Origin: Dokdonia sp.
GTDB taxonomy: Bacteria > Bacteroidota > Bacteroidia > Flavobacteriales > Flavobacteriaceae
Assembly (NCBI GenBank): GCA_020630915.1
Contig: JAHDIF010000001.1
Span: 62,001-126,000, forward strand
Direction: 5' to 3'
Length of the DNA: 64,000 nucleotides
The translations under genes were made by a program, and so were the position numbers. Shown here piece by piece: positions 3 to 60,937 of this stretch (within the stretch, counting starts at the first letter, position 1; each line of letters starts with the position of its first letter). The notes under the pieces were generated by a model. The model made no database searches. It was not told where the DNA came from and saw only the letters and a program-made list of their open reading frames with translations.

Positions 3-404
3 GCTCAGAGTATTGCCGGAGTGAGCTTAAATGTTCCCATCTTTAGCTCTGGAATGCGCAATGCTAAAACCGCAAAAGCCAAGATAGCACTAGAGCAAGC
101 TACTTCAGATCTTGAAAATACCATACAACAGATAGAACTCGCTTTCGCGAAAGCAAAAAACGACCACGAATTTGCCATAAATACTTTTCAAAACAAAAAG
201 GACAACCTAGCTCTTGCCGAACGCATCGAAAACAAAAATCGAATCAAATTTCAAGAAGGTGTAGGCTCTAGTTTTGATTTAAGGCAAGCCCAAACACAAC
301 TATACGGAATACAACAAGAAGTATTACAATCTATGCTCAACATTGTAACCACAAAAGCCGAATTAGAAACGGTCCTCAATACACCTAATTATAGTAGTAA
401 GTAG
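3..404 (+). CDS. TolC-family outer membrane efflux protein, C-terminal part
   Basis: The reading frame is open from the left edge, so this is the C-terminal part of a longer gene. The visible ~133 residues start with a hydrophobic strand and the phrase NVPIFSSGMRNAKTAKAK, then long amphipathic helices and the motif GVGSSFDLRQAQTQL, typical of the second repeat of TolC-type outer-membrane channels (OEP family). The fusion protein and RND pump genes follow on the same strand, so it should be the outer-membrane exit duct of that tripartite pump. A GCTTTCGCGAAAGC palindrome lies inside the gene at 141 and is read as AFAKA. Family assignment is firm; substrate is unknown. Confidence 0.85.
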   Translation, partial: AQSIAGVSLNVPIFSSGMRNAKTAKAKIALEQATSDLENTIQQIELAFAKAKNDHEFAINTFQNKKDNLALAERIENKNRIKFQEGVGSSFDLRQAQTQLYGIQQEVLQSMLNIVTTKAELETVLNTPNYSSK

Positions 405-410
405 GATGGG

Positions 411-462
411 GAGTTGAGGAGTTGAGGAGTTGAGGAGTTGAGGAGTTTAGGAGTTTAGGAGT
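411..462. repeat. 8-bp tandem repeat between tolC-like gene and four-helix-bundle gene
   Basis: Six full units and a half unit: four of GAGTTGAG, two of GAGTTTAG, then GAGT. It begins 7 nt after the tolC-like stop codon. With an 8-bp period and a TGA in each of the first four units, the array puts a stop codon in every plus-strand frame. Confidence 0.9.
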
Positions 463-487
463 AAAAATTAAAACATTAGATGAAAGA

Positions 488-850: not shown

Positions 851-874
851 CATATGAAAATTAACGCTCAACAT

Positions 875-896
875 ATCGACTCATCGACTCATCGAC
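875..896. repeat. 8-bp tandem repeat upstream of membrane-fusion gene
   Basis: ATCGACTC repeated 2.75 times between the four-helix-bundle gene and the membrane-fusion gene. The unit differs from the array at 411-462 but has the same 8-bp period. It lies in the leader of the next gene if the lipoprotein start at 926 is correct. Confidence 0.8.
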
Positions 897-925
897 AAAA
901 TTTCTTCCAACAAAAATCAACCAAT

Positions 926-2095
926 ATGAAATTTGCCATTTTATTAACCCTTTCAGCTGCTCTACTTGGCTCTTGCAGCGGCGACCACACCCAATCCACA
1001 GAAGCAATTATAGCATCAGAAAATGTAGAAGCTCTTCAAAATAAAAAAGCCGAACTCAATGCATCTGCAGCGACTATTAAGGAAGAACTTGCACAAATAG
1101 AAAAAGCACTCGAGACCCTAAATCCTGCAGAGAAAAAAGAGGTTCTTGTGACTACAGCTATGGTTAAAGATACACTGTTCAATCATTTTGTAGAGATACA
1201 AGGTAGCGTTGATACCAAACAAAATGTACTAGTATATCCAGAATATCAAGGTACTTTACTCAGAGTAAATGTAAAAAAAGGACAGCGCGTTTCTAAAGGG
1301 CAAACACTTGCTAGTATAGACGACGGGGGACTAGGAAGCCAAGTAGCACAACTAGAAACCCAAGAGGCGTTGGCAAAAACCACCTTTGAAAGACAGCAAC
1401 GTCTATGGAACCAGAAGATAGGATCTGAGATTCAATTCTTACAAGCAAAGACACAGTACGAGTCTGCACAAAATATGGTCAAGCAAATGAAAAGCCAGCT
1501 AGGCAGAACGGTGGTAAAAGCTCCTTTCTCTGGTGTAATAGATGATGTGATTACAGAACAAGGTACCGTCGTAGCCCCAGGAATGCCTCTTTTTAGAATT
1601 GTCAATCTGAGCAATATGTATGTAAGCGCAGAAGTACCAGAAACCTACCTCAAGACCATTCAAAAAGGAAAAGACGTGAGCGTTTATTTTCCAGTATTGG
1701 ATGAAACCGTGGAGACCACTATAAGACAAGCAGGAGATTACATCAACCCTGCTAACAGAAGTTTCCCAATAGAAATAGATGTGCCAAACAAAAAAGGAAA
1801 CATCAAACCTAACCTTACCGCGAGACTCTCCATCAATGATTATACATCAGATAACGCCATTTTAATCCCTCTCAATGTGATTAATGAAAATGCCGAAGGT
1901 GAGCAGTATGTGTATACAGCTTTCGCGAAAGCGGAAGACAACACCACCGTAGCAAAACAGCAAATCATAACTACAGGACTTTCGCAAGGAGATAAGATAG
2001 AGGTTCTCACAGGACTTAAAGCGGGAGACCAGATTATTGTGGAGGGAGCACGATCTGTAAAAGACGATCAAGAAGTAAAAATCTTAACGTACTAA
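926..2095 (+). CDS. RND efflux periplasmic adaptor (membrane fusion) lipoprotein
   Basis: Periplasmic adaptor of a tripartite RND pump, 389 residues from this start. I chose ATG 926 rather than ATG 854 because it yields a proper SPII signal, MKFAILLTLSAALLGSCSG, with lipobox LGSC; the earlier start would add 24 residues read through the tandem repeat. A coiled coil (about residues 25-60) is followed by a biotinyl-lipoyl-like half (LLRVNVKKGQRVSKGQTL), a helical hairpin, the second lipoyl half (VVKAPFSGVIDDV) and beta-barrel domains. The RND pump starts 4 nt after the stop codon, so they are co-transcribed. A GCTTTCGCGAAAGC copy lies at 1919. Confidence 0.92.
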   Translation: MKFAILLTLSAALLGSCSGDHTQSTEAIIASENVEALQNKKAELNASAATIKEELAQIEKALETLNPAEKKEVLVTTAMVKDTLFNHFVEIQGSVDTKQNVLVYPEYQGTLLRVNVKKGQRVSKGQTLASIDDGGLGSQVAQLETQEALAKTTFERQQRLWNQKIGSEIQFLQAKTQYESAQNMVKQMKSQLGRTVVKAPFSGVIDDVITEQGTVVAPGMPLFRIVNLSNMYVSAEVPETYLKTIQKGKDVSVYFPVLDETVETTIRQAGDYINPANRSFPIEIDVPNKKGNIKPNLTARLSINDYTSDNAILIPLNVINENAEGEQYVYTAFAKAEDNTTVAKQQIITTGLSQGDKIEVLTGLKAGDQIIVEGARSVKDDQEVKILTY

Positions 2096-2099
2096 GACT

Positions 2100-5000
2100 A
2101 TGAACGCAAAGAAACAAAAGAAAGTAGATAAGGAATTTGGCTTAGCAAGTTGGGCCATAGATAATCCCACTATTATCTATGTATTGATGGGACTATTTCT
2201 TGTGCTTGGTATGAGCGCTTACTTAGGAATGGCTCGTGAGAACTTCCCAGAAATAAACGAAACCAAAATTTATATATCTGCACCCTACCCCGGTAACACG
2301 GCAGAAGATATAGAACGTCTTATTGTAGACCCTCTAGAAGACAAACTTCAAAATCTCTCTGGCGTTGTAGAAGTGCTGTCTACTTCTCAAGAAGATTATG
2401 CCATCATCACTGTAGAGTTTGATTACAAGATGGATGTGCAAGTCGCAAAGCAGCGCGTTAAAGACGAGGTAGACTCTCAAACCGCAAACGAAGACTGGCC
2501 CACCTTTAATGGTGCAAAAGTAGAGCCTAATGTCTTTGACCTAAGTATCTCAGAAGAGACTCCTATTCTTAATGTAAACGTTTCTGGAAATTACCCTGTA
2601 GATAAGCTTAAAGACTATGCTGAGTATCTACAAGATGAAATCGAAAGTCTTAAAGAAATAAAGGAAGCGACTATACGTGGTGCGCAAGAGCGTGAGGTAG
2701 AAGTTGCTGTAGACATCTACAAAATGATGGCTGCCAAAGTCAATTTTGACAACGTACTAGGCGCTATTAGTAATGGTAATATGACGCTCTCTGCAGGAAA
2801 TCTAGTTTCCAGCGGACAACGTCGTAACATACGTATATTAGGTGAAATACAAACTCCAGAAGAACTTGAAAACTTTGTGGTAAAATCAGAAAACGGCGCG
2901 GTATACCTTAAAGATATTGCAACAGTAACGTTTACAGAAGAAGATAAAACTACATATGCACGTGACCTCACCCTAGAAAAAGGAGAGTCTGTAGATGATG
3001 AAAACGTGAGCGAAAGCGTCGTGATGCTGGACGTAAAAAAACGCTCTGGCGAAAATATGATTGAGGCCGTTGAACAAATAACAGAGATCATTAAAAGCGC
3101 AGAGGCTAATGTATTCCCTCCTGATGTAAAAATCACCACCGCAAATGACCAAAGTGCAAAAACGGAGAACCAAGTAAACGACCTGGTAAACAATATCATA
3201 TTCGGGATTATTCTAGTAGTAGGCGTCTTGATGTTTTTCCTAGGATTTAAAAACGCCCTATTTGTTGGTTTTGCGATTCCTATGTCTATGTTCATGAGTT
3301 TTATGATACTCAACTTAATGGGGTATACCATGAACACGATGATCCTTTTTGCCCTTATTATGGGATTAGGAATGCTGGTAGATAACGGTATTGTAGTTGT
3401 GGAGAACGTGTATCGCTTAATGGACGAAGAAGGCATGTCTCGCATAGAGGCTGCAAAAAAAGGAATAGGTGAGATCGCCTTCCCGATTATAATTTCTACC
3501 CTAACCACGGTAGCTGCATTTGTACCACTAGGATTATGGCCAGGATTGATGGGACAGTTTATGATTTATTTCCCCATCACGCTTTCAGTAGTATTAGGAT
3601 CTTCGCTATTTGTAGCGATTTTCATTAACTCGATGCTGGTGTCTAAGTTTATGAAAACGGATGAGAAAACGCTTTCGCGAAAGCTTCTTACTCGCATCTC
3701 CCTTATGATGCTTCCTATTGGACTCTTAATCCTATTTGTAGGCGGACCCGTAAGAGGTTTTGGAACATTAGTATTAGTCACTATCGTCCTGATGTGGGTA
3801 TACAAATATGTACTACACGGTGCTGCCGAAGTTTTCCAGCGTCGCTTTTTAACGTGGTTAGAAAATAGATACAGAAAATTTTTAGGTTGGGCATTAAAAG
3901 GATGGAGACCTTTAGGGTTTGCCTTTGGAATATTTTTTATGCTCATAGCTACTTTTGCAGCCTTTGGTGGTTCCGTAGGAGCTGGACGAACCGCGATAGA
4001 GTTCTTCCCGGACAACAAGCCTAATCAGATTATTACCTATATAGAATACCCAGAAGGTACCGCAATTGAGAAGACAAATGCTATTACTAAAGAGATAGAG
4101 CGTCGTATCTTTAAAGTATTTAACGACGCTCAATATTTAGAAGGATCTGATTATAATGCACTGGTAGAAACATCCGTTTCTCAAGTGGGTGAAGGCGCTG
4201 GAAATCCGCAAACAGACGGCGGAAGCTCAGCCGAAATGCCGCATAGAGCTAAAATTACCGCAACGATGCGAGAGTACAAATTCCGTAATGGCGCAGACAG
4301 TGAAGAACTACGATTTAAGGTACAAGATGCATTAAAAGGAATTTATCCAGGTGTTGTAATTACTGTGGAGAAAGATGCTGCTGGACCACCACAAGGGTAT
4401 CCTATCAACCTTGAATTAGAAGGAAATAATTATGAAGAGTTGATCAGTGCAGCAGAAAAAATGCGCAACTATATCAATGCTCGTAACGTCCCTGGAGTAG
4501 ATGAAATTAAGATTGATGTAAATAGAGGAAAGCCAGGAACACAAGTAATTGTAGATCGTCAGAAAGCAGGAGAACTAGGAGTGGCGGTAGGACAAGTAGG
4601 AATGCAGTTACGTAATGCCATTTTTGGAAGCAAAGCTGGTGTCTATAAAAAGGATGGAGAAGATTATGATATTTACGTGCGTTTTAAAGAAGACCAGCGA
4701 TACAATAATTCTGCATTGTTTAATCAAAATATCATCTTTAGAGATCCTGCTACAGGGCGTATTAAAGAAATACCTGTATCTGCGGTAACGACTACAAAGA
4801 ACACCTCTTCTTTTAGCGCTATTAAACACCGTGATTCTAAACGCGTGGTGACAGTGTATTCTGCACTTGCTGCGGGCTACACAGATGCTGGTGTTGTGGT
4901 TGCCGCTATACAAGAAGAAATGCAAAACTTTACAGACCTCCCTAAAGGAGTAAAAGTAAATTACACAGGGCAGATAGAAGAACAAAACAAAGAAATGGCA

Positions 5001-5681
5001 TTCTTAATGAGTGCATTTTTTGGAGGTCTAGGCTTAATTTTCTTTTTATTGATCTTCCAATTCAGTTCTATCTCAAAGCCAGTCATTATAATGATTGCTA
5101 TTTTTTTAAGCTTTATAGGGGTCTTTGGAGGAATTATAGCCAGTGGCTCCTCATTTGTAATCATTATGACAATGATGGGTATTATATCACTTGCAGGTAT
5201 TGTTGTAAATAATGGGGTAGTATTATTAGACTACACCCAGTTATTGGTAGACCGAAAAGAAGTAGCACAAGGATTAGAAGGCAAACAGATGCTAGATGTA
5301 GCCACCACAAAAGAGGTGATTATAGAAGGAGGACGTGCGCGTCTACGCCCAGTATTACTCACGGCCATCACTACGGTATTGGGGTTAATACCGCTCGCCA
5401 TAGGTATCAATATTGATTTCTTTGGGCTCTTTCAAGAATTTGATGCAGGCATTTATATAGGTGGAGATAACGTTATTTTCTGGGGACCGCTGGCTTGGAC
5501 CGTAATATATGGTCTTATTATAGCCACCTTCTTAACCTTAATCATTGTACCGTTATTATACTATATAGTATATCGTATAAAGTTCTATTTTAGAGGATCT
5601 AAGGCAACAGCGGCACAAGAGCTTGCAGAGGGCTCTTTTGAAGATGATGGTATTGAATTTGCCATTCCAGAGGGAGAGTAA
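2100..5681 (+). CDS. RND-family efflux pump inner-membrane permease
   Basis: Proton-driven AcrB/MdtB-type transporter, 1193 residues, longer than the usual ~1030-1060. It has an N-terminal membrane helix, porter domain, TM2-6, an extra hydrophobic pair (about residues 540-580), a second porter domain and a C-terminal helix bundle. TM4 reads GMLVDNGIVVVENV: the first Asp of the AcrB Asp-Asp pair is kept (residue 428) and the second is Asn. In TM10 the AcrB Lys position is Asn (GIVVNNGVVLLD, residue 1037). Such variants are common in Bacteroidota RND pumps, so I do not read this as inactivation. It ends the operon with the TolC and adaptor genes. The substrate cannot be predicted. A palindrome copy lies at 3671. 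Confidence 0.95.
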   Translation: MNAKKQKKVDKEFGLASWAIDNPTIIYVLMGLFLVLGMSAYLGMARENFPEINETKIYISAPYPGNTAEDIERLIVDPLEDKLQNLSGVVEVLSTSQEDYAIITVEFDYKMDVQVAKQRVKDEVDSQTANEDWPTFNGAKVEPNVFDLSISEETPILNVNVSGNYPVDKLKDYAEYLQDEIESLKEIKEATIRGAQEREVEVAVDIYKMMAAKVNFDNVLGAISNGNMTLSAGNLVSSGQRRNIRILGEIQTPEELENFVVKSENGAVYLKDIATVTFTEEDKTTYARDLTLEKGESVDDENVSESVVMLDVKKRSGENMIEAVEQITEIIKSAEANVFPPDVKITTANDQSAKTENQVNDLVNNIIFGIILVVGVLMFFLGFKNALFVGFAIPMSMFMSFMILNLMGYTMNTMILFALIMGLGMLVDNGIVVVENVYRLMDEEGMSRIEAAKKGIGEIAFPIIISTLTTVAAFVPLGLWPGLMGQFMIYFPITLSVVLGSSLFVAIFINSMLVSKFMKTDEKTLSRKLLTRISLMMLPIGLLILFVGGPVRGFGTLVLVTIVLMWVYKYVLHGAAEVFQRRFLTWLENRYRKFLGWALKGWRPLGFAFGIFFMLIATFAAFGGSVGAGRTAIEFFPDNKPNQIITYIEYPEGTAIEKTNAITKEIERRIFKVFNDAQYLEGSDYNALVETSVSQVGEGAGNPQTDGGSSAEMPHRAKITATMREYKFRNGADSEELRFKVQDALKGIYPGVVITVEKDAAGPPQGYPINLELEGNNYEELISAAEKMRNYINARNVPGVDEIKIDVNRGKPGTQVIVDRQKAGELGVAVGQVGMQLRNAIFGSKAGVYKKDGEDYDIYVRFKEDQRYNNSALFNQNIIFRDPATGRIKEIPVSAVTTTKNTSSFSAIKHRDSKRVVTVYSALAAGYTDAGVVVAAIQEEMQNFTDLPKGVKVNYTGQIEEQNKEMAFLMSAFFGGLGLIFFLLIFQFSSISKPVIIMIAIFLSFIGVFGGIIASGSSFVIIMTMMGIISLAGIVVNNGVVLLDYTQLLVDRKEVAQGLEGKQMLDVATTKEVIIEGGRARLRPVLLTAITTVLGLIPLAIGINIDFFGLFQEFDAGIYIGGDNVIFWGPLAWTVIYGLIIATFLTLIIVPLLYYIVYRIKFYFRGSKATAAQELAEGSFEDDGIEFAIPEGE

Positions 5682-5932: not shown

Positions 5933-6433
5933 ATGAAAAATTATGCACTCCCCATTAGATATGGGATCGCCATGGGCGGATTACTCATAGGTTACTTTTT
6001 AATTATTGCGCTTTTTGACTGGCATACCAATCCACTATTTAGCCTCTTTAATGGTGTTATTACTGGATTCGGTATTTACGAAGCCGTAAAAGGAATAAAG
6101 CTCCGTAAAGGAAATTCCTTCTCTTATGGAGACGGGTTCACGACTGGAGTTGTATCTGGATTTATTGCAACCCTTATGTTCACAGCTTTCTTTGGCCTAT
6201 ATGCAGGTAACATAGCACCCACTTTTCTTGAAAATCTTGTAGGTCCTTGGAACGGTACCACCAGCCTTGGTGCTACAATTTTCACAGTAGCCATAGGAGG
6301 ATTTGCAACTTCTATTGTACTTACGCTCTCCCTAATGCAACTTTTTAAACCCACGTGGAATGCTCACGGATATTCGGCTAAAGAAGTCATTCAGGCGATG
6401 AAAAAGCATGAAGCTCGTGAAGCAAATGCATAA
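5933..6433 (+). CDS. DUF4199 family integral membrane protein
   Basis: A 166-residue protein with four predicted membrane helices (about residues 10-30, 34-52, 70-92 and 108-132). The spacing of helices and the segment KGNSFSYGDGFTTGVVSGF match the DUF4199 family of Bacteroidota, whose function is unknown. The frame is intact and of normal length. It stands alone between the composite repeat and the rplU promoter, and a GCTTTCGCGAAAGC palindrome begins one base after its stop codon. Family recognition is good; nothing can be said about function. Confidence 0.8.
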   Translation: MKNYALPIRYGIAMGGLLIGYFLIIALFDWHTNPLFSLFNGVITGFGIYEAVKGIKLRKGNSFSYGDGFTTGVVSGFIATLMFTAFFGLYAGNIAPTFLENLVGPWNGTTSLGATIFTVAIGGFATSIVLTLSLMQLFKPTWNAHGYSAKEVIQAMKKHEAREANA

Positions 6434-6434: not shown

Positions 6435-6448
6435 GCTTTCGCGAAAGC
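6435..6448. repeat. GCTTTCGCGAAAGC palindrome
   Basis: Exact 14-bp palindrome one base after the stop codon of the DUF4199 gene. One of seven exact intergenic copies in the window. Confidence 0.95.
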
Positions 6449-15044: not shown

Positions 15045-17537
15045 TTATTTCTTTTTTGCAGTCGCCTTTTTACGTGTGATCTTTTTCTTTTTAGGAGCAT
15101 TTTTCTCAATTATAGCTTTCACCTCATCCAGGGTTAATTTTGCAGCATCAACCGTTTTAGGTAACTCTATCTTAGTCTTTCCTTTAATAATATTGGATCT
15201 ACCCCATCTAGCTTTCTCCACACGAATCCCTTCTTCTTCAAAGTTATGGATTACTTTATCGATCTCTTTTTGCTTCTTTACTTCAATAAGCTCTACAATA
15301 TCTGCATCAGAAAGATTGTCAAAATCGTATTTCTTATTGACATTGATAAACATTCCGTTCCACTTTATAAATGGACCGAACCGTCCTGTACCTTTTTGCA
15401 CAGGAAGGTCTTCATACATATATATAGGAGCATCTGCCTTTTGTTTTTCTTTGATGAGCTCTACTGCCTCCTCAAAATCTACCTGCATAGGATCTCTACC
15501 CTTAGGCAGGGACACAAATGCCTTTCCAAACTTCACATAAGGACCATAACGTCCATTATTTACAGACACCTCTTCTCCTTCGTATTCTCCAAGATCTTTA
15601 GGAAGTTTAAAGAGATCCATTGCCTCTTCGTACGTGATACTACTTAACTGCTGATCGGGACTGAGGCTCGCAAATTTAGGCTTCTCTTCGTCCTCTACGG
15701 AACCTATTTGAACCATAGGTCCAAATTTTCCTAAGCGCACGCTCACGGGTTTTCCAGATTCTGGATCTGTTCCTAGCACACGTTCTCCCACTTCACGCTC
15801 GGCATTTTGCTCTACATCTTTTACATGCGGGTGAAAGTCTTTGTAAAAGTCCTTCATCATCTTCGTCCACTCCTGCTTTCCTTCGGCTATCTCATCAAAG
15901 TCTTGCTCTACTTTTGCCGTAAAGTTGTAATCCAATATATTTTCAAAATGATTTACTAAAAAATCATTTACTACCATTCCTACATCTGTAGGAACAAGTT
16001 TACCTTTATCAGACCCTACGGTCTCAATTAATTGTTTTTCCTTTACGTTTCCACCCTTGAGGGTAAGCACATCATAAGAACGCTCTTTACCATCTACCAT
16101 TCCTTTTTCGACATACTTTCTATTCTGGATGGTTGTAATGGTAGGCGCATAGGTAGATGGTCTTCCTATTCCTAACTCTTCTAACTTTTTTACGAGAGAA
16201 GCCTCTGTATATCTATAGGGAGGTCTCGTAAATCGCTCTGTTGCGGTGATATAAGAGTTATCTAATGACTCACCTTCTTTAAGTGCAGGCAACAACCCAG
16301 TCTCTTCTTGATCTTCGTCATCACTACCTTCTAGGTATACTTTTAAGAATCCTTCAAATTTAAGAACCTCTCCATTTGCGGTAAGATTATCTGTACCCGC
16401 AGAAGATGCTATTTGCACATTCGTACGTTCCAACTGCGCCTCACTCATTTGAGAGGCAATTGCCCTCTTCCAGATAAGTTCGTACAAACGAGCTTGATCT
16501 CGATCTATATTTACACTGTGTTTAGAAAAATCTGTAGGTCTGATCGCTTCATGCGCTTCTTGGGCTCCTTTTGATTTTCCTTTATAATTGCGCTCTTTGC
16601 TAAAACTTTCTCCGTAAGCTGTAAGAATTTCTTCTTTGGCGGCATTTTTTGCATCTACAGATAAGTTTACACTGTCTGTTCTCATATATGTAATGAGTCC
16701 AGCTTCATAAAGACGCTGTGCCATAGTCATTGTCTTACTTACCGAAAAATACAATTTTCTACTTGCCTCTTGTTGCAAGGTAGACGTAGTAAATGGCGGT
16801 GCTGGAGACTTCTTAGCCGGTTTTGTTGTAAGCGCTGCCACTTTAAATTGTGCCGTCGCGTTTTTAGATAAAAAAGATTCCGCTTCTTTTTTAGAAGTAA
16901 TATTTTTAGGAAGTTTCGCTTTAAATGACTTGCCAGCTTCATTTTTAAACTCGGCATCTATTCTATACGAGGCCTGTGCATTAAATTTTTGAATCTCACG
17001 CTCACGCTCTACAATAAGACGAACGGATACAGATTGTACACGCCCCGCAGAAAGACCTCCTTTTACCTTCCTCCAGAGCACAGGAGACAATTCATATCCT
17101 ACCAGTCTATCGAGCACGCGTCGTGCTTGTTGAGCGTTTACTAGATCATAATCAATCTTACGAGGATTCTCGATAGCTCTTTTAATTGCCGTCTTTGTAA
17201 TCTCATGAAAAACAATACGCTTTGTGCGCTCTGGATCCAGGTCTAGTGCCTGTTCTAGGTGCCAAGCAATGGCTTCTCCCTCACGATCCTCATCACTTGC
17301 GAGCCATACCATTTCGGCTTTTTTTGCCAGATCTTTTAGTTTCTTTACAACTTTCTTCTTGTCATCAGAAACTTTATAGTTGGCCTTAAAATCACCGTCT
17401 ACATTTACTCCAAGTTCTTTAGATGGCAGATCTGCTATGTGACCAAAACTACTCTCAACCTTATAATCAGGTCCTAAAAATTTTTCTATTGTTTTGGCCT
17501 TTGCGGGTGACTCCACAATGACTAGATTCTTTGCCAT
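15045..17537 (-). CDS. topA: DNA topoisomerase I
   Basis: Type IA topoisomerase that relaxes negative supercoils, 830 residues. The N-terminal Toprim domain begins KNLVIVESPAKAKTIEKFLG and has the acidic motif ASDEDREGEAIAWHL; the nucleophile is the Tyr in GLITYMRTDSVNLS. The C terminus has no Cys4 zinc fingers. It carries topoisomerase C-terminal repeats (NGRYGPYVKFG, TGRFGPFIKWNG) and a Lys-rich tail. Stop lies 3 nt from the arginase-fold gene, which is probably co-transcribed. Confidence 0.97.
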   Translation of the reverse strand: MAKNLVIVESPAKAKTIEKFLGPDYKVESSFGHIADLPSKELGVNVDGDFKANYKVSDDKKKVVKKLKDLAKKAEMVWLASDEDREGEAIAWHLEQALDLDPERTKRIVFHEITKTAIKRAIENPRKIDYDLVNAQQARRVLDRLVGYELSPVLWRKVKGGLSAGRVQSVSVRLIVEREREIQKFNAQASYRIDAEFKNEAGKSFKAKLPKNITSKKEAESFLSKNATAQFKVAALTTKPAKKSPAPPFTTSTLQQEASRKLYFSVSKTMTMAQRLYEAGLITYMRTDSVNLSVDAKNAAKEEILTAYGESFSKERNYKGKSKGAQEAHEAIRPTDFSKHSVNIDRDQARLYELIWKRAIASQMSEAQLERTNVQIASSAGTDNLTANGEVLKFEGFLKVYLEGSDDEDQEETGLLPALKEGESLDNSYITATERFTRPPYRYTEASLVKKLEELGIGRPSTYAPTITTIQNRKYVEKGMVDGKERSYDVLTLKGGNVKEKQLIETVGSDKGKLVPTDVGMVVNDFLVNHFENILDYNFTAKVEQDFDEIAEGKQEWTKMMKDFYKDFHPHVKDVEQNAEREVGERVLGTDPESGKPVSVRLGKFGPMVQIGSVEDEEKPKFASLSPDQQLSSITYEEAMDLFKLPKDLGEYEGEEVSVNNGRYGPYVKFGKAFVSLPKGRDPMQVDFEEAVELIKEKQKADAPIYMYEDLPVQKGTGRFGPFIKWNGMFINVNKKYDFDNLSDADIVELIEVKKQKEIDKVIHNFEEEGIRVEKARWGRSNIIKGKTKIELPKTVDAAKLTLDEVKAIIEKNAPKKKKITRKKATAKKK

Positions 17538-17661: not shown

Positions 17662-17675
17662 GCTTTCGCGAAAGC
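17662..17675. repeat. GCTTTCGCGAAAGC palindrome
   Basis: Exact copy between topA and the small truncated lipoprotein gene, about 28 nt past the stop of the latter on the minus strand. Confidence 0.95.
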
Positions 17676-23305: not shown

Positions 23306-24973
<1,668 letters not shown>

Positions 24974-35751: not shown

Positions 35752-35765
35752 GCTTTCGCGAAAGC
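35752..35765. repeat. GCTTTCGCGAAAGC palindrome
   Basis: Exact copy in the 23-nt gap between the convergent rodA and nuclease genes. A transcript from either side would carry the hairpin, so terminator function is possible. Confidence 0.95.
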
Positions 35766-40839: not shown

Positions 40840-41118
40840 ATGAAAAAAGAAATACTGATTGGTGTCCTCACTGGGGTTATGGCAAATGCGCTAGGCGTTA
40901 TTTTATATATTCTAGCGTTTTCAGACAAGGGAATTGACGCCACTATACAACAATCGCTATCCGAAGGTTTTTTTGGAAAAATAGTTACGCTAGGTGCGAT
41001 CCTTAATCTCCTTGCATTTTTTCTTTTTATTAAAAAGAAACAAGACTACAGGGCAAGGGGTGTTCTACTAGCAACAGTAATTATTGCTATTGCTGTGATG
41101 ATTCGTAAATTTATCTAG
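40840..41118 (+). CDS. Small integral membrane protein
   Basis: A 92-residue protein with three predicted helices (about 5-28, 45-64, 71-89). KKEILIGVLTGVMANALGVI opens the chain and a basic KKKQDYRARG loop separates the last two helices. I do not recognise a named family. The stop codon overlaps the lpxB GTG by one base, so it is co-transcribed and probably translationally coupled with lpxB; a role in the envelope is inference. Confidence 0.7.
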   Translation: MKKEILIGVLTGVMANALGVILYILAFSDKGIDATIQQSLSEGFFGKIVTLGAILNLLAFFLFIKKKQDYRARGVLLATVIIAIAVMIRKFI

Positions 41119-42236
41119 TGAAATATTATATCATAGCAGGAGAGGCAAGCGGCGATCTTCACGGATCTAATCTTATAAAAGCACTTTATAAGGAAGACCC
41201 AAACGCGACCATACGTTTTTGGGGTGGAGACCTTATGCAGCAAGCTGGTGGAGAACTCGTAGTTCACTATAAAGATAGAGCCTTTATGGGATTTATTGAA
41301 GTGATCTTTAATCTAAGAAAAATTCTTGGATTTATAAAAAAATGCAAGCAAGACATCACTTCTTTTCAACCAGATGCCTTGATACTAATTGATAATTCTG
41401 GCTTTAATTTACGTATTGCAAAATGGGCCAAACCTCTAGGATTTAAAACGCACTATTATATCAGTCCTCAAGTATGGGCTTCTCGCGCTGGGCGTGTTAA
41501 AGATATCAAAGCCTCTGTAGATCATATGTACACTATACTTCCTTTTGTAAAGGATTTCTATAAAAAATATGACTATAGTGCTCATTTTGTCGGGCACCCC
41601 TTACTTGATGCTCTGGCAAACAGATCTGTGATACACCCAAAAGAATTTAATAAAGCGCATAATCTAAGTGACGAGCCTATTATCGCGCTGCTACCTGGCA
41701 GCAGAAAGCAAGAAATAAAAGCAATGTTAGAGATTATGCTAAGCGTAGTCCCTAGTTTTCCGTCCTATCAGTTTGTTATTGCTGGGGCACCTAGTCAAGA
41801 TGCAAGTTTTTATGCTTCTTTTATTGAGCAAATACCGCAAGTGCATTTTATTACTAACAAAACCTATGACTTACTTGGCGTGGCCCACGCAGCTGTCGTA
41901 ACTTCTGGCACCGCTACTCTAGAGACAGCTCTTTTTAAAGTACCCCAAGTAGTTTGTTACAAAGGGAATCGTATTTCTTATGAGATCGCAAAGCGCATCA
42001 TTAAACTAGATTACATTTCTTTGGTAAACCTAATTATGGATAAAGAAGTGGTTACGGAACTTATTCAGCAAGAATTTACTACTAAAAAACTTACTAAGGA
42101 ACTTGAATTCGTTCTAGATCATTCGCGGCGCAAGCAAATGTTTAGCGACTATTATGAATTGGAACAGCGCTTAGGAGGTAAGGGAGCCTCTGCAAAAACG
42201 GCAAAACTTATTGTTCATAGTCTTGGTGATAACTAG
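41118..42236 (+). CDS. lpxB: Lipid-A-disaccharide synthase
   Basis: GT19 glycosyltransferase that joins UDP-2,3-diacylglucosamine and lipid X in lipid A synthesis, 372 residues. MKYYIIAGEASGDLHGSNLI at the N terminus, PQVWASRAGRVKDIKA and ALLPGSRKQEIKAM are the LpxB signatures; the nucleotide site ends with TSGTATLETALFKVPQVVCY. It starts with GTG overlapping the previous stop. lptC and lptE in the same window belong to the same LPS route. Confidence 0.96.
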   Translation: MKYYIIAGEASGDLHGSNLIKALYKEDPNATIRFWGGDLMQQAGGELVVHYKDRAFMGFIEVIFNLRKILGFIKKCKQDITSFQPDALILIDNSGFNLRIAKWAKPLGFKTHYYISPQVWASRAGRVKDIKASVDHMYTILPFVKDFYKKYDYSAHFVGHPLLDALANRSVIHPKEFNKAHNLSDEPIIALLPGSRKQEIKAMLEIMLSVVPSFPSYQFVIAGAPSQDASFYASFIEQIPQVHFITNKTYDLLGVAHAAVVTSGTATLETALFKVPQVVCYKGNRISYEIAKRIIKLDYISLVNLIMDKEVVTELIQQEFTTKKLTKELEFVLDHSRRKQMFSDYYELEQRLGGKGASAKTAKLIVHSLGDN

Positions 42237-42245: not shown

Positions 42246-42259
42246 GCTTTCGCGAAAGC
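42246..42259. repeat. GCTTTCGCGAAAGC palindrome
   Basis: Exact copy 9 nt past the lpxB stop, extended on both sides to CGCTTTCGCGAAAGCG. Confidence 0.95.
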
Positions 42260-48680: not shown

Positions 48681-50870
48681 TTAAAGTTTTTCCTTGATAA
48701 AATTAGTCATCATCGTATACAGATGGTAGCGTGTATTGCCTCCATAAATACCGTGATTTTTATCTGGATAATTAAAGTAGGTAAATTGCTTATTTGCCTG
48801 CACAAGCGCTTCGACCAAGCGCGTGGTATTCTGTACGTGCACATTATCATCTGCGCTGCCATGCACGAGCATAAAATCTCCTTTAAGCTTCTCTACGTGA
48901 GACATAGGTGAGTTTTTATCATATCCCGATGGGTTTTCTTGTGGTGTTTGCATATAGCGCTCTGTGTAGATAGTATCATAAAAACGCCAACTCGTAACTG
49001 GTGCTACTGCAATGGCCATTTTAAAGGTATCTGCTCCTTGAAACAAACAGTTAGACGCCATAAAACCTCCGTAACTCCATCCCCAGATTCCTATTCTATC
49101 TGCATCAATATACGCGCGCTTTCCTAAAGCTTGCGCTGCGGCGATTTGATCTTGTACTTCGTATTTACCTAATTCCTTTTGAGTAACTTTCTTAAAGTCT
49201 CTTCCTTTAAGCCCTGTTCCTCTTGGGTCTACACAAACTACAATATAACCTTCTTGTGCTAGCATCTGGAACCAATAATCATTAGTCCCGCCCCAACTAT
49301 TTTTCACACTCTGAGATCCCGGCCCAGAATACTGCGTCATGAATACAGGATATTCTTTAGCATCATCAAAATCGGATGGCTTAATCATATACGCATTAAG
49401 TGAAACGCCATTTACCTCTAAGTTAAAGAACTCTTTTTGAGAAGTATTGAAACCTTCATACGTACTTTTAAGAGCATTATTATCTTTAATCGTCTTAATG
49501 ACCTTCCCGTTCTTAGCACTATTTAATGTAAACTTCCAAGGTGTATTTACATCGCTAAATGAATTAATAAAATACGTGAAGTCTGCACTAAAGTCTGCGC
49601 TATTAGAACCTGAGGCCACCGCAAGGTTTTGCTTTTTTCCTCCATGAAGTTCTATAGCATATACACCTCGATTGATAGATCCATTTTCTGAACTTTGATA
49701 AAAAATACGATCTGTATTTTGGTCATACCCGTAATAGCTCGTCACCTCCCACTCACCAGAAGTCACTTGCTGGCTCACAGAGCCATCTGCATTATGGTGA
49801 TAGATATGATTCCACCCATCTTTTTCACTGGTCCAGATAAAGCTATTATCTTCCAGAAACGTAAGATTATCTGTAACATCTACATAGGCATCATCTGTAT
49901 CTTTAAGAAGTAATTTCGTTTGATACGTATCTGCATCAAACATATATAAATACAGCTCATCTTGATGCCTATTAAGTGTTTGTATTGAGAGTTCACTAGC
50001 ATTTTTACTCCACTTTATACGAGGTATATAATACGCATTTTCTATATCTAGATTTACTCGTGTTGCCTGTACTCTTCGCGAACCTTTCATATCTAGTGTA
50101 TGCACAAAAACACTTACCTCTGCATTGGCCTCTCCAGCTTTAGGGTATTTAAAAACTTGTTGTTTTTGGTACAATTCTTTGCCATAAACATCCATAGAGA
50201 ATTCTGGCACTTTGCTTTCATCAAAACGTATGTAGGCTATCTTATTACTATCTGCACTCCAATCAAAGGCGCGTACAAAGGCAAATTCTTCCTCATATAC
50301 CCAATCTGTAATACCGTTTATGATGCTATTTTTCTCTCCATCATAGGTAATCTGATCTGTCCTTCCCGTAGCAATCGTAAAAACATACAAGTTATTATTC
50401 TTACCATAGGCAATCTTAGTACCGTCTGGAGAGAACGTAGGCTCTTGGATAAGATCATCAGATACTTTGGTTAGCTTTCGCGAAAGCGTATTATACACAT
50501 AATATTCTCCCAATGTAGACCTTCTAAAGATAGATTGAATCCTTGTAGACAATAAAACCTGCTCTTCTTCAGGACCAAATTCATAGCTTATAAAGTAGTC
50601 TAAGCCATCTATTTCTTTGCTATTAACCGGAGTTTTTACTTTGGCACCACTCTCATAATTATAGATATCTACCGTAGCTGAGCGTGTTGCGCGATCAAAA
50701 TTTTGAACAGCATATTCTGTACCATTAGACATAGAATGCAATGCTTGCAAACGTTCTGTTCTAAAGGTATTATCCTTCCATATATCATCTAATGTAATTG
50801 ATTTTTTTTGAGCAAAAACAGTGCTCGTTGCCATAAGAATTAGGGCAATTAAAAAAGTATGTAATCGCAT
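48681..50870 (-). CDS. Dipeptidyl peptidase IV (S9B family)
   Basis: Exported serine protease removing X-Pro dipeptides, 729 residues. Signal peptide MRLHTFLIALILMATSTVFA ends AFAQ. A beta-propeller (DPPIV_N, about 100-460) contains the acidic N-terminus-binding pair in DWVYEEEFAFVRAF; the hydrolase domain has the nucleophile in GIWGWSYGGFMASN, Asp in VHGSADDNVHVQ and His in PDKNHGIYGG. Followed by two POT genes, it fits a peptide-degradation-and-uptake operon. A palindrome copy lies at 50474. Confidence 0.95.
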   Translation of the reverse strand: MRLHTFLIALILMATSTVFAQKKSITLDDIWKDNTFRTERLQALHSMSNGTEYAVQNFDRATRSATVDIYNYESGAKVKTPVNSKEIDGLDYFISYEFGPEEEQVLLSTRIQSIFRRSTLGEYYVYNTLSRKLTKVSDDLIQEPTFSPDGTKIAYGKNNNLYVFTIATGRTDQITYDGEKNSIINGITDWVYEEEFAFVRAFDWSADSNKIAYIRFDESKVPEFSMDVYGKELYQKQQVFKYPKAGEANAEVSVFVHTLDMKGSRRVQATRVNLDIENAYYIPRIKWSKNASELSIQTLNRHQDELYLYMFDADTYQTKLLLKDTDDAYVDVTDNLTFLEDNSFIWTSEKDGWNHIYHHNADGSVSQQVTSGEWEVTSYYGYDQNTDRIFYQSSENGSINRGVYAIELHGGKKQNLAVASGSNSADFSADFTYFINSFSDVNTPWKFTLNSAKNGKVIKTIKDNNALKSTYEGFNTSQKEFFNLEVNGVSLNAYMIKPSDFDDAKEYPVFMTQYSGPGSQSVKNSWGGTNDYWFQMLAQEGYIVVCVDPRGTGLKGRDFKKVTQKELGKYEVQDQIAAAQALGKRAYIDADRIGIWGWSYGGFMASNCLFQGADTFKMAIAVAPVTSWRFYDTIYTERYMQTPQENPSGYDKNSPMSHVEKLKGDFMLVHGSADDNVHVQNTTRLVEALVQANKQFTYFNYPDKNHGIYGGNTRYHLYTMMTNFIKEKL

Positions 50871-51044: not shown

Positions 51045-52358
51045 ATGACCAACGCTATCTCGGGTTTTTCTAAACTTTCTAAAGCCGAAAAAATAAGCTG
51101 GATCACAAAAAATTATTTCAATGGTGATCAAAAATCCAGCAAGCTTTTACAAACTTACTGGAACTCAGACGAGCAGCTTCAGCAGTTACACGATGAGTTT
51201 ATAGAAAACACTATCTCCAATTATTACTTACCTCTAGGTGTAGCGCCCAATTTTATGATTAATGGGCAAAACTATACAATTCCTATGGCCATAGAAGAAA
51301 GCTCTGTTGTGGCAGCAGCTAGTAAAGCCGCTAAGTATTGGAGTGCAAGAGGTGGTTTTAAAACTACTGTTCTTAATACAAAAAAAGTAGGACAAGTACA
51401 TTTTACGTACACCGGAGATAAGGAAGTACTTACTTCGTTTTTTCAAGACATACTCCCTATTGTATATAAAGAAGTGCAACACATCACCACGAATATGGAG
51501 AAACGAGGCGGTGGTATTTTAGATATTGAGCTTCGTGACAAAACACAAGATATCCCTCACTATTACCAGTTGCATTGCACCTTTAACACACTAGATGCGA
51601 TGGGTGCCAACTTTATAAATAGCTGTCTAGAGCAATTTGCAAAAACTCTAGAAGAACGGTTTGAGGGAGATACCCGCTTTCGCGAAAGCAAAGACAAACT
51701 CAACATAATTATGAGCATCCTGTCTAATTATGTTCCAGAATGTATTGTACGTGCAGAGGTGAGTTGCCCTGTAAATGACTTATCAGAAAGAAACATTGAA
51801 GGAAAAGAATTTGCCGAAAAATTTGTGCAGGCAATCCGCATCGCAGAGGTTGAACCCTACAGAGCAGTAACCCATAACAAAGGCATTATGAATGGTGTAG
51901 ATGCCGTTATTCTAGCAACAGGGAACGATTTTAGAGCTGTAGAAGCCGGAATACACGCATATGCCGCCCGTAATGGCAGTTATAGCAGTCTTACGGGTGC
52001 AACTATTGAAAATGACATCTTCACCTTCTGGATAGAGCTACCGCTCGCTCTTGGGACTGTAGGAGGTCTTACAAAATTACACCCGCTAGTAAAATGGTGT
52101 TTGCAATTATTACAAAATCCCTCTGCGCAAGAATTGATGCAAATTGTTGCCGTCGCTGGCCTCGCTCAAAATTTTGCAGCCGTAAAATCACTTACGACTA
52201 CTGGCATCCAACAAGGTCATATGAAAATGCACTTGATGAACATCCTTAACCAACACAGCGCAACTGCACAAGAAAAGAAGGCAGCCGTTGAGCATTTTAA
52301 AACCACACCTGTCACGCATAGTGCCGCAGTAACTTTTATAGAAAACCTACGCAAGTGA
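51045..52358 (+). CDS. Hydroxymethylglutaryl-CoA reductase (class II-like)
   Basis: Converts HMG-CoA to mevalonate, 437 residues. ISGFSKLSKAEKISWI at the start, NYTIPMAIEESSVVAAASKA, NTLDAMGANFINSC and the nucleotide loop PLALGTVGGLTKLHP are HMGR motifs. The soluble form without membrane helices is the bacterial class. A GHMP kinase overlaps its end, which points to a biosynthetic mevalonate route to isoprenoids, as usual in Flavobacteriaceae. A palindrome copy at 51676 is read as RFRES. Confidence 0.93.
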   Translation: MTNAISGFSKLSKAEKISWITKNYFNGDQKSSKLLQTYWNSDEQLQQLHDEFIENTISNYYLPLGVAPNFMINGQNYTIPMAIEESSVVAAASKAAKYWSARGGFKTTVLNTKKVGQVHFTYTGDKEVLTSFFQDILPIVYKEVQHITTNMEKRGGGILDIELRDKTQDIPHYYQLHCTFNTLDAMGANFINSCLEQFAKTLEERFEGDTRFRESKDKLNIIMSILSNYVPECIVRAEVSCPVNDLSERNIEGKEFAEKFVQAIRIAEVEPYRAVTHNKGIMNGVDAVILATGNDFRAVEAGIHAYAARNGSYSSLTGATIENDIFTFWIELPLALGTVGGLTKLHPLVKWCLQLLQNPSAQELMQIVAVAGLAQNFAAVKSLTTTGIQQGHMKMHLMNILNQHSATAQEKKAAVEHFKTTPVTHSAAVTFIENLRK

Positions 52359-57574: not shown

Positions 57575-58953
57575 TAAAGATTAGGAACTCGCACGCTTGA
57601 TCCGATCCAACAGTTAAACTTCACTGTTGTTCCTGCCTTATTTTGTGAGAAGATCATTGCCTTATCTGGAGCTTTTGCTCTGTAAGATGCAGCAGTTCCA
57701 TTTGCTGTTTTAGCAAGTGATGGGTTTACACGTCCTGCTCTCTCTGCGGTGTTTGCCGCTAGCCAGTAGGTAGCTCTTTTGTCAAAAACACTGCTACCAC
57801 AATTATTAGCACTTGCTGCATACATTGCTGCAATGTTTAAGTAACATCTTCCCATAGAAGGATTTTCTGCCAAAGCCTTATTATATAGACCTCTTGCTTT
57901 CCCATAGCTTCCAGCTTTCTTAGCTTTATTAGCTAATCTGTAATAAGCATCTGCTCTTTCTAATGGATCTGTTTCAAGATCAATAGACTCTTGGTAATAT
58001 CTAGCTTCTGCCGCTGCATCACCTCTTTTTCCAGCAAGAATACCTAAATACTTCGCACTCTTAGCAGAAGGTTCTAGTCTGTGTAACTCCGTTACTAAAT
58101 TTTGGAATAAACTAGAATCTGTACAATCCTTACCTGCAAGTCTTCCAGCCGCTTTTCTAATCCAGTCGATATCATTCTTCATAGAATCAAAATCTTTCTG
58201 GTATAAAGGAATAAGGTTATCACAGTTTCCTAAAGCCCCAAGAGCGCTATCTGTACTTCCTCCAAAAATTCCAAACGCCTTGAGGTTTGTTTCATATCCT
58301 TTAACTCGTTTTGCTTCTTTTGCAGATAATTTCTGTCCAGCATCTTCTTTATCTTTTAACTTCTGAAGCTTAGCATCTAGTTTAGAAGCCTCTTTATTCA
58401 ACTTTATTTGCGTTTCGTCGTATAGATCAAAAACTTCTTGTAGTTGCACATCTCCAGACTTGTAAAGATCTACCGCTAGTTTAAATCTCGCATAGATACT
58501 TTTTGCACTTGTTATTGAAGTTGCATCTTTTGCAAAAGCAGCTTTAAATGCATCAAACTGTGATTTTTTAGTACCTATCTCGTTATCAAATAGTATTTGA
58601 GCTTGATCTGCTGCATTTTTGCCTTTGGGCGTTTTTGCAGGAAAATATTGTTCTCTCTGCTTCATAAACTCTATTAAGTCTAAAGCAATCGCTCTTTTCT
58701 GGTCACCTGTAGCTTTCTTAAGGTCTGCCTTTAATAACTGAGCTCCTCTTTGATATAAAGCTAGAGACCAAGTAGGACAATCTTTTCTTAATTTTTCAAA
58801 ATGTGGTCGAGCTGTTTCCCAATTCTTTACTTTTGCTGCTTCGTTAAAAACAGAGCCCGTAGTCATGCACTCTTCGCTTATCTGAGCTTGCATACCTGTT
58901 ACTCCAACAACAAGGAATAAAGCAGTAAGAAATGTGGTTACTTTAGTTTTCAT
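57574..58953 (-). CDS. Secreted tetratricopeptide-repeat protein
   Basis: 459 residues with signal peptide MKTKVTTFLTALFLVVGVTG ending near MQAQ. Helical throughout; TPR-like pairs are clearest at YYQESIDLETDPLERADAYY, LANKAKKAGSYGKARGLYNK and ALAENPSMGRCYLNIAAMYA. No catalytic motif. Conserved next to lptC, coaX and an outer-membrane protein in flavobacteria, so a role in envelope assembly is plausible. Coupled to lptC by the TAATG overlap. Confidence 0.82.
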   Translation of the reverse strand: MKTKVTTFLTALFLVVGVTGMQAQISEECMTTGSVFNEAAKVKNWETARPHFEKLRKDCPTWSLALYQRGAQLLKADLKKATGDQKRAIALDLIEFMKQREQYFPAKTPKGKNAADQAQILFDNEIGTKKSQFDAFKAAFAKDATSITSAKSIYARFKLAVDLYKSGDVQLQEVFDLYDETQIKLNKEASKLDAKLQKLKDKEDAGQKLSAKEAKRVKGYETNLKAFGIFGGSTDSALGALGNCDNLIPLYQKDFDSMKNDIDWIRKAAGRLAGKDCTDSSLFQNLVTELHRLEPSAKSAKYLGILAGKRGDAAAEARYYQESIDLETDPLERADAYYRLANKAKKAGSYGKARGLYNKALAENPSMGRCYLNIAAMYAASANNCGSSVFDKRATYWLAANTAERAGRVNPSLAKTANGTAASYRAKAPDKAMIFSQNKAGTTVKFNCWIGSSVRVPNL

Positions 58954-58971
58954 AGTCTAGGTTTTATGCTA

Positions 58972-60219
58972 TTAATTAAATTTTCTTTTGAGGAACCAAA
59001 TATCATTTAATGATAAACTCAATCCAACGTTAAAAAAGTTTTCTTGTACTAAATTTGCTGTAGTTGTTCCTCGTTGACCATACTCAAAAGTAAGGTTTAA
59101 GTTACTTATATTTCGTCTAGCTGGTAGTCCTACTCCAAAAGATATGCCAAACTCATTTATATTTTCGTTAGACACCACCAGTCCTGTATCTTCATATCTA
59201 AATCCAGCTCTATACGTCACGCGCTCAAAATAGCTAGAAACAGAATTATAATTAGGAACATAAAATCCTCCTACATTTAATGAAGACCCATCTACAAAAC
59301 TCGCTTGCTCTGCGTTAAAAGATCTATTTGTAAAGTTGCTGGTCTTTCTCGTAGTGTACTCTGCCCCTACAAACCATTTATTAGGAGCTCCTAATCCTAA
59401 TCCAATTGTGGTAGATGAGGGAAAATCAAAATCAGAATCTGCAATATTACTATCAACGATATCCAATTCTTGAACGAGCCCTAAATCATTTGTAACTACA
59501 GACGCGATCTGCCTATCGTTCTCAGACGAGAAATTAGATGAAGGCACATACTTAATAGAAGAACGCAACTCTAACTTATCAGATAGCATTGTCTCGTATT
59601 GTGCTCCAAACTCCCATACAAATCCGCTCAAATCAGACCTGTTACTCTCTAAGGTACCTAGCTCAACGTCATCCTGAATCCTTAAAGTTTCATTCTGAAT
59701 ATTACCAAAATTATAAGTAGCTGATACGCCTAAACTCAGTCCCTTGTACACCTCGTATCCTCCAGATAGAAAAACACGATTAAGACCTCCTCTTCCATCA
59801 AAAGTAGTAACAAAATCGTCTTGAATATCTTCAATATCATATCCAACCGCTGTCCAAGGCATTAGGCCAAAACTTACACCTCCCTTTTTTGCTACAGGAA
59901 ATCCTAAAGCAACATAATCAAAGGTTGTGTTTGTGCCTTTACTCGTATTATTTGATTCGTTAAAAGTTACCGTATTGTGATTTGCCCCTACCGTAAACGT
60001 CACAAATCGAAGCTTTGCAAGTTGTGCTGGATTAGAAAGATTGAGGTGAAGACTATCGCTATACAGACCTAATCCACCCATCCCTCTATTTTCTACTGTT
60101 CCTTTAAATTGCTGTACACCTATCCCATAAAAAGAATAGGGCGACGAGGTACCGCCTTCTTGTGCATTTGTCTTAAAAACAAGCACTAATACTACTAGTA
60201 GTATAACTTTTTTAATCAT
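58972..60219 (-). CDS. Outer-membrane beta-barrel protein
   Basis: 415 residues. Signal peptide MIKKVILLVVLVLVFKTNAQ, then SSPYSFYGIGVQQFKGTVEN and GMGGLGLYSDSLHLNLSNPA, the opening of the FadL/PorV-like barrels of Bacteroidota; alternating strands follow and the chain ends in WFLKRKFN. The function is not known; it could be a porin or assembly factor. It overlaps coaX by 8 nt and lies 18 nt before the TPR gene. Confidence 0.82.
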   Translation of the reverse strand: MIKKVILLVVLVLVFKTNAQEGGTSSPYSFYGIGVQQFKGTVENRGMGGLGLYSDSLHLNLSNPAQLAKLRFVTFTVGANHNTVTFNESNNTSKGTNTTFDYVALGFPVAKKGGVSFGLMPWTAVGYDIEDIQDDFVTTFDGRGGLNRVFLSGGYEVYKGLSLGVSATYNFGNIQNETLRIQDDVELGTLESNRSDLSGFVWEFGAQYETMLSDKLELRSSIKYVPSSNFSSENDRQIASVVTNDLGLVQELDIVDSNIADSDFDFPSSTTIGLGLGAPNKWFVGAEYTTRKTSNFTNRSFNAEQASFVDGSSLNVGGFYVPNYNSVSSYFERVTYRAGFRYEDTGLVVSNENINEFGISFGVGLPARRNISNLNLTFEYGQRGTTTANLVQENFFNVGLSLSLNDIWFLKRKFN

Positions 60220-60937
60220 TCGAGTTTATTAAAATGTAATTAAGGCCCTCCAGCAAAAAATTAGAGAGCGCAAATATGCTATTTTTTAATCGTTTTGACA
60301 AGAATTCTCCATCTCCACCAGTAATTACGACCGTTTGTACTTGAAATTCTTCCTTATATCGACTTATAACGCCATCTATCTCTGCTAAGACGCCATTAAT
60401 TACACCAGAAAACATGGCGCTTTCCGTCGTATTTCCAACAAGTTCTTGTTCTTGTACTCCAGAAAGTAAAGGAAGATTAGCCGTGTAGTTATGCATCGCT
60501 TCATACCGCAGCCGTATTCCCGGTGCAATGGCTCCTCCCCAATAGCGTGCTTTTTCATCTAGGTAATCATATGTGATACAAGAACCTACGTCAATAACGA
60601 GACCAGATGTTTGGGGGTACGCTTTCGCGAAAGCGGCCATCAAACCTATTCTATCAACTCCCAAAGTCTCAGGAGTTTTATACATATTTATAAATGGCAC
60701 CTTTGTCTCATGAGTCAATAGGATTGTAGGAAATCTAAGCTGTACGGATCTTCTTTGTTTTTCAGATAATCTTCCTACAGAAGAAATAATTGCTTTAGTG
60801 ACAGGATATTTTCCTGCGAATATTCCTATCTGAGCTATAAAATCATTCCTGTCAATATATACAAGCTCTTCCAAATGAGTATTGTCAAAAACCGCAGCTT
60901 TAACCCTCGTATTCCCTACATCAATAATTAATTGCAT
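60212..60937 (-). CDS. coaX: Type III pantothenate kinase
   Basis: First enzyme of coenzyme A synthesis, 241 residues. ASKHA phosphate loop IIDVGNTRVKAAVFD, substrate loop TPETLGVDRIGLMAAFAKAY and the second phosphate motif GLVIDVGSCITYDYLD are present; the adenosine motif is VVITGGDGEFLSKRL. Short length is normal for Bacteroidota. First gene of the coaX / outer-membrane protein / TPR / lptC operon. A palindrome copy at 60621 is read as AAFAKAYP inside the active-site region. Confidence 0.95.
   Translation of the reverse strand: MQLIIDVGNTRVKAAVFDNTHLEELVYIDRNDFIAQIGIFAGKYPVTKAIISSVGRLSEKQRRSVQLRFPTILLTHETKVPFINMYKTPETLGVDRIGLMAAFAKAYPQTSGLVIDVGSCITYDYLDEKARYWGGAIAPGIRLRYEAMHNYTANLPLLSGVQEQELVGNTTESAMFSGVINGVLAEIDGVISRYKEEFQVQTVVITGGDGEFLSKRLKNSIFALSNFLLEGLNYILINSND

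Follow-up and report, generated by a model that had tools for sequence, protein, structure and literature searches.

A strict and highly iterated 14-bp palindrome in Dokdonia and related Flavobacteriaceae, possibly a tag for the exchange of self DNA

Strict, highly iterated palindromes have been a long-standing puzzle, as seen for the highly iterated palindrome HIP1 (GCGATCGC) of cyanobacteria. The positions of HIP1 are conserved. Other chromosomal palindromes, the sites of Noc, SlmA and matS, are tens of relaxed protein sites with a bias towards the origin or the terminus. In this study, we analysed a 64-kb stretch of DNA from Dokdonia sp. (hereafter the window), in which the 14-bp palindrome GCTTTCGCGAAAGC occurs in 17 exact copies, together with other genomes of the Flavobacteriaceae. 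Elhai linked HIP1 to orphan methyltransferases, and the main text of that review leaves flavobacteria and Bacteroidetes unmentioned (Elhai 2015, PMC4390886). Redfield et al. gave a strict consensus, spacing, non-coding preference, substitution origin and site stability as traits of the uptake signal sequence (USS) of Pasteurellaceae and the DNA uptake sequence (DUS) of Neisseriaceae, both of which are non-palindromic and occur near one per kb; they called such strictness anomalous for ordinary binding sites (Redfield et al. 2006, PMC1626085). Riemerella columbina, a relative, is naturally competent and prefers its own DNA, although an uptake sequence was not established in it, and Flavobacterium johnsoniae was not competent (PMC7965970). 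We recognised no paper on the present motif, and the 14-mer was found in none of the main texts searched, with subscription papers, preprints and supplements outside the search.

The motif observation is genuine and genome-wide. All 17 copies listed by an earlier sequence-only reading of the window were found at their positions, and matches with up to two mismatches numbered 20 (17 exact, none with one mismatch and three with two), compared with a mean of 0.25 in 100 dinucleotide-preserving shuffles. The genome of the window (G000; 2,967,236 bases), in which the window lies on contig 6, has 685 copies, about one per 4.3 kb, and a reversed-pattern control gave 0. At least one copy was present in 80 of 397 sampled Flavobacteriaceae genomes (G000 included). 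Hundreds of copies were found in only six of the 397, namely G000, G206, three genomes of genus g11 and G190, and the remaining 391 had 0–19 copies each. All 18 Dokdonia genomes (369–905 copies) and all 23 genomes of genus g11 (288–857 copies) were motif-rich, and the single genome of genus g191, G190, had 408 copies. Genus g11 is taken as Nonlabens by inference and is called so below; in a weak BLAST check, G413, G416, G418 and G426 matched only Nonlabens among the named loci, but G190 did so too. Genus g145 was nearly motif-free, with 9 and 6 copies in two sampled genomes. The abundance of the motif and many of its site positions are kept in relatives, so the outcome that the sequence-only reading had named as its refutation did not occur. 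Counts that were neither background nor rich were seen in G287 (19), G051 (17) and G076 (16), G076 and G287 being of genus g77.

Few copies deviate from the consensus. Our samples were 452 kb of G000 (window included) and 780 kb of the Dokdonia genome G397, which is a single contig, and exact versus single-mismatch copies numbered 102 versus 22 and 212 versus 16, respectively. In the G000 sample, the ratio of observed to expected counts by base composition was 1.5 × 10^5 when the match was exact and dropped to 683, 37, 3.8 and 1.4 with one, two, three and four mismatches, respectively. The fall in over-representation from exact to one-mismatch copies was about 220-fold in G000 and 630-fold in G397. 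For the uptake sequences of H. influenzae and N. gonorrhoeae, this fall is 92-fold and 82-fold (Bakkali 2007, PMC1939737).

Sequence preferences continue beyond the core. At 101 sites of G397, C stood directly before the core in 86% and T at −3 in 82%; the values in G000 were 53% and 70%, and TTC or TAC mostly preceded the core in the Nonlabens samples. The flanks form arms that are G/T-rich on the 5' side and A/C-rich on the 3' side, with the strongest segments about one helical turn out. In G000, G397 and Nonlabens, positions −9 to −12 had a 5' G+T content of 0.70–0.72. The bias faded at about −20 to −25, and the symmetric flank preferences span 20–25 bp per side. A far smaller excess was seen further out in places (e.g., 0.518 at −61 to −100 in G397). 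The bias was found in intergenic copies and in every coding frame; it was weaker and patchy in G190 (40 half-sites). This anatomy suggests a binding unit of ~55–60 bp with two-fold symmetry.

The coding copies occupy all three frames, and the DNA sequence rather than the peptide is preferred. The peptides AFAKA, FRES and LSRK were encoded by the motif 87, 36 and 39 times versus 3, 7 and 10 times by other sequences, and selection on the peptide was rejected because other codons seldom give the same peptides. Thirty of 162 coding sites could be aligned with homologues from other genera, in a set where a few genes were counted from both species and part of the DNA was chosen for holding the motif. 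The five motif residues matched these homologues at 18% versus 50% elsewhere, and 26 of the 30 sites had no gap at the motif. These two results indicate that base substitution creates the motif where conservation is weak, and that the motif then sets the residues found there. The sequence-only reading had proposed selection or a copying process acting on the DNA or RNA and not on a peptide; the DNA-level force stands, whereas a copying process that inserts the motif is made unlikely, and an inserted element is disfavoured, by the gapless alignments. The features of a mobile repeat of the repetitive extragenic palindrome (REP) type, which are a conserved unit beyond the palindrome, intergenic location and insertion, were not those found here. 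By eye, AFAKA-coded copies were seen near the end of apparent signal peptides (L128:2360-3577 and L407:723-1556).

Non-coding DNA is favoured as well. With simple calling of open reading frames (ORFs; 80 aa), 42 of 102 sites in G000 lay outside ORFs versus 9.2 expected (4.6-fold), and 110 of 212 in G397 versus 19.0 expected (5.8-fold). The split in the window into 10 genic and 7 intergenic copies was reproduced against its ORF list, and the copies described as lying often just past a stop codon do so: five of the seven (6435, 30127, 35752, 40768 and 42246) begin within 15 bp of one. In general, intergenic copies peak a few bases past the stop codon, with no marked preference among tandem, convergent and divergent gaps. 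The copies also repel each other at short range. In G397, the coefficient of variation of the gaps was 0.74 versus 0.96 in randomisations that kept the gene structure, and gaps below 800 bp numbered 2 versus 15.7, with 0 of 2000 randomisations as low. Thirty-nine 20-kb samples of this genome held 1–8 copies each and were under-dispersed (variance/mean 0.44), and in these 39 bins neither an origin or terminus bias nor an empty terminus was seen. The evenness in G000 is weaker evidence (30 sites in 124 kb, P 0.026). In the contiguous sample of G397, the longest gap measures 16.8 kb, and a 4,951-aa ORF without a motif copy (L292:5125-19980) occupies nearly all of it. Rfam gave no match on two stretches around the longest motif-free gaps.

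The copies in the window, with no strand assigned to the copies themselves (minus marks genes on the minus strand), are given below with their state in G397 where it was scored.

141..154, in an OEP-family efflux gene (21..404); G397 without a copy at this place
1919..1932, in a HlyD/CusB-like gene (854..2095); common to G397
3671..3684, in an AcrB-family gene (2100..5681); G397 without a copy at this place
6435..6448, directly past the stop of 5933..6433; G397 without a copy at this place
17662..17675, intergenic, upstream of a topoisomerase gene (15045..17537, minus)
22143..22156, in ORF 21541..22434 (without Pfam match)
23216..23229, intergenic, upstream of a cpn60-family gene (23342..24973)
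26062..26075, in ORF 25705..26136 (minus; without Pfam match); common to G397
30127..30140, soon past the stop of 28580..30112; common to G397
35752..35765, between convergent ORFs
37267..37280, in a transport permease gene (36582..37679, minus); common to G397
40768..40781, soon past the stop of a SurE-family gene (39988..40761); common to G397
42246..42259, past the stop of an LpxB-family gene (41118..42236); G397 without a copy at this place
43449..43462, in comEC (42824..44854), read as RFRES
50474..50487, in an S9 peptidase gene (48681..50870, minus); common to G397
51676..51689, in an HMG-CoA reductase gene (51045..52358); common to G397
60621..60634, in a type III pantothenate kinase gene (60212..60937, minus)

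Over 115 kb aligned between G000 and G397 at 74% identity, 14 sites were shared, 8 were found only in G000 and 6 only in G397. In a 17–18-kb region of six Dokdonia genomes (DNA identity 69.8–78.0% in 14 of 15 pairs and 94.6% in one), the site was shared in 60 of 61 scored pairwise comparisons. These were limited to sites lying 10 or more bases within a BLAST alignment, for the most part coding ones, and they under-report intergenic turnover; the majority of intergenic sites of the region lay beyond the aligned parts. One of the three intergenic sites of G000 in this region (40768) had a counterpart, in G397 only. In these alignments, most copies hold their position between species, the coding ones above all. 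In comEC, the identical 14 bases encode RFRES in all six Dokdonia (G000 included) and also in G190, where protein identity is 37%; other residues stand at this position in G144 and four Nonlabens. A tree of TopA (one gene, one tree, the 30 rows most like the G000 protein) placed Dokdonia, G144 and G190 in one clade (100/100), with G144 beside G190 (98/90), and in the ComEC tree the branching near G144 and G190 was poorly settled, with a long-branch warning. The comEC site is common to G190 and Dokdonia, so the motif was probably ancestral to this clade, inside which genus g145 falls by TopA, and was lost in that genus. The copies in g145 are as expected of relics held by protein constraint: of 15 places, ten loci (about seven distinct) were covered, and simple ORF calling put the copy inside an ORF in every one.

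In Nonlabens, a TopA match was present in G010, but it was not among the closest matches listed. Fifteen of the 162 coding sites could be aligned between Dokdonia and Nonlabens, in a biased sample where most Nonlabens loci were chosen for holding the motif; in 2 of these the motif lay almost at the same position, in another 2 it lay at a different point of the alignment, and in 11 the aligned part had none. The 2 sites with an almost equal position are one gene viewed from G000 and from G397, with the motif in another frame. The transport permease gene (copy 37267) has Nonlabens homologues in which the motif stands almost at the same position, in a different frame. Because the TopA of G010 was not among the closest listed and 13 of the 15 sites were not co-located, the motif either was gained twice, its reader perhaps having been transferred, or is older with many losses.

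The stretches around the copies were read in seven low-copy genomes. G087, G215, G078 and G101 have two copies exactly 933 bp apart with near-identical flanks (L124, L125, L127 and L128). Both copies of G101 (L128) lie in a TolC-like gene adjoining a CusA/AcrB-like gene, as named by eye from the translations, and the same 933-bp pair is found in a named uncultured Aquimarina contig (L041). They are probably pieces of metal-efflux DNA that moved horizontally out of motif-rich donors. Neither the motif nor TCGCGA occurs in two related 35.7-kb phages of Nonlabens. In viral contigs, at least 120 stretches hold a copy; among those listed, 109 have a single copy and 11 have two or three, and from the latter it seems that phages or prophages of motif-rich hosts may carry the motif. 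The viral contigs L188 and L222 have three copies each within 11–12 kb, a host-like density, and are possibly prophages of motif-rich hosts.

Our first choice, held tentatively, is that the motif is a tag for the exchange of self DNA that is kept by biased exchange. The 14-bp palindrome would be the core of a symmetric recognition element, with TAC or TTC next to the core and weaker flanks of ~20–25 bp on each side, and a putative, highly specific and probably dimeric DNA-binding protein would read it. This reader would belong to a DNA-exchange system, so that cells would favour tagged DNA for uptake (or export) and for recombination into kin. Biased replacement would then let the tag build up, as is thought for the uptake sequences of Pasteurellaceae and Neisseriaceae, and the tag would mark self DNA across Dokdonia, Nonlabens and G190.

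This choice is made because the strictness, spacing, non-coding preference, substitution origin and stability of the motif fit the traits of uptake sequences, and because R. columbina prefers its own DNA. Like USS and DUS, the motif has hundreds of exact copies with few single mismatches, is spaced more regularly than at random, prefers non-coding DNA with many coding copies, originates by substitution and not insertion, and is stable in position over long times; like the USS of H. influenzae, it has weak and less conserved flank segments. The motif is present in every sampled genome of Dokdonia and Nonlabens, yet g145 is nearly without it, and the motif-free Nonlabens phages and the recurrence of motif-bearing segments in other genera are consistent with an exchange tag. 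ComEC was found in 24 of 24 genomes searched. Likewise, the resemblance to HIP1 noted by the sequence-only reading holds for abundance, strictness and conserved sites, and the motif is, like HIP1, a highly iterated palindrome within and between genes that is lineage-limited with exceptions. It differs from HIP1 in its different, longer sequence, its lower density and in having neither PF00145 nor PF01555 common to its carriers. We file the motif with the highly iterated palindromes and uptake sequences as a kind; it is not a member of HIP1, ParB or matS, and not a proven uptake sequence.

Several observations weigh against the exchange tag. Unlike USS and DUS, the motif is a palindrome with a 14-bp core and symmetric flanks, it is in a different phylum, and at one per 4.3 kb in G000 it is about four times sparser; perfect symmetry is no less fitting for an intracellular protein that acts as a dimer. 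The uptake machinery was represented by the secretin (PF00263) of the classical type IV pilus route, pilins being outside the scope, and the secretin was found in 8 of 32 motif-rich versus 9 of 28 motif-poor genomes. It is thus not a correlate of the motif, and since 24 of the 32 motif-rich genomes were without it, G397 with its single contig included, a secretin-dependent machine is not the common factor of the carriers, in which respect they differ from the bearers of USS and DUS. ComEC is also present in the motif-poor G144, and no receptor gene or reader protein was found among the families tested. The 11 of 120 listed viral stretches hold their two or three copies within 6.5–15 kb, which is near-host density, intergenic sites turn over between G000 and G397 (8 and 6 unshared sites versus 14 shared), and our literature search located no uptake or competence data for Dokdonia or Nonlabens.

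If the exchange tag is true, uptake specificity would extend to the phylum Bacteroidota, and segments in other genera that stem from this source would also be recognisable by the motif. A wider form, in which separate genera of marine flavobacteria make up an exchange community with a palindromic tag read by a secretin-independent uptake or transfer machine, as an independent invention of uptake-sequence biology in another phylum, is less likely than not. The exact motif across genera, a loss lineage, positional conservation and named culture-collection strains of the hosts make the hypotheses of uptake, methylation and chromosome structure separable by simple experiments.

The main rival, plausible although less favoured, is a chromosome-organising or segregation protein: a dimer would bind ~50–60 bp and bend or bridge the DNA, and selection would keep one site per few kb. 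It stands close behind the exchange tag because the motif is symmetric and evenly spaced and its carriers have no secretin in common. The symmetric flanks around the palindrome, the short-range repulsion, the fairly uniform density round the G397 chromosome and the deep positional conservation agree with such a protein. Its binding is inferred here; the sites, like those of Noc, SlmA and matS, are palindromic and dispersed over the chromosome, but they differ in being hundreds of strict copies without evident bias. The consensus is far stricter than is usual for intracellular DNA-binding proteins (contrast in PMC1626085), and genus g145 dispenses with the motif. A matS-like site confined to the terminus does not agree with the G397 bins. 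A chromosomal ParB match was present in 31 of 31 genomes, and a second, weaker match in 7, of which one (G418) is motif-rich; a Noc-like ParB paralogue accompanying the motif was therefore rejected among these 31 genomes.

A donor-side drive is improbable, although the same drive, spacing and strictness would follow from it with no need for a secretin. The motif would then act as the signal by which a gene-transfer particle, a vesicle or a conjugative system packages or processes DNA, with which the tagged efflux-gene segments in other genera are compatible.

It is quite unlikely that the motif is a HIP1-like target, where an orphan methyltransferase marks the CGCG or TCGCGA centre and methyl-directed repair or regulation keeps the site. 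Methyltransferases read less sequence than the 20–25 bp beyond the core over which preferences are seen here, and CGCG is not enriched in the G000 sample (543 observed versus 571 expected). We tested PF00145 (C5) and PF01555 (N4/N6), the N6 families PF02384, PF02086 and PF07669 being outside the scope. PF00145 was found in 7 of 11 motif-rich genomes and was absent from G403, G411, G426 and G190; PF01555 had matches in 6 of 6 motif-rich genomes outside Dokdonia, one of them weak, and was absent from 5 of 5 Dokdonia tested, and the motif-rich G403 (a single contig) and G411 had neither. A cytosine methyltransferase was rejected as the common factor on these grounds, and with it the suggestion of the sequence-only reading that the motif is a methylation target, as far as the cytosine kind is concerned. 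In favour of a methyltransferase remain the HIP1-like abundance and strictness, as HIP1 is tied to orphan methyltransferases (PMC4390886).

Least likely of all is an RNA-level element (a 3'-end hairpin, terminator or processing site). The peak past stop codons speaks for it, as does the good folding of an extended 24-mer, taken as single-stranded DNA; one natural copy did not fold well. Against it, ORFs contain about half of the copies, A and C rather than U abound on the downstream side, and the palindrome is kept in only 3 of 59 two-mismatch variants (about 1.5 expected by our own count), which argues that the sequence and not the pairing is kept.

In motif-poor genomes, no convincing replacement palindrome was found in 29 stretches of 20 kb from 26 genomes, four further stretches below 1.4 kb having been dropped; this also speaks against an organising protein. 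G144 has another 14-bp palindrome, GTAAAACGTTTTAC, with two copies within 20 kb (L336); the repeated words of two further 20-kb samples from G144 did not include it. In G006 (L326), GTTCCACGTGGAAC, which resembles parS, occurs twice in 20 kb. In the window itself, adjoining OEP, HlyD/CusB-like and AcrB-family efflux genes (21-5681) have one palindrome copy in each.

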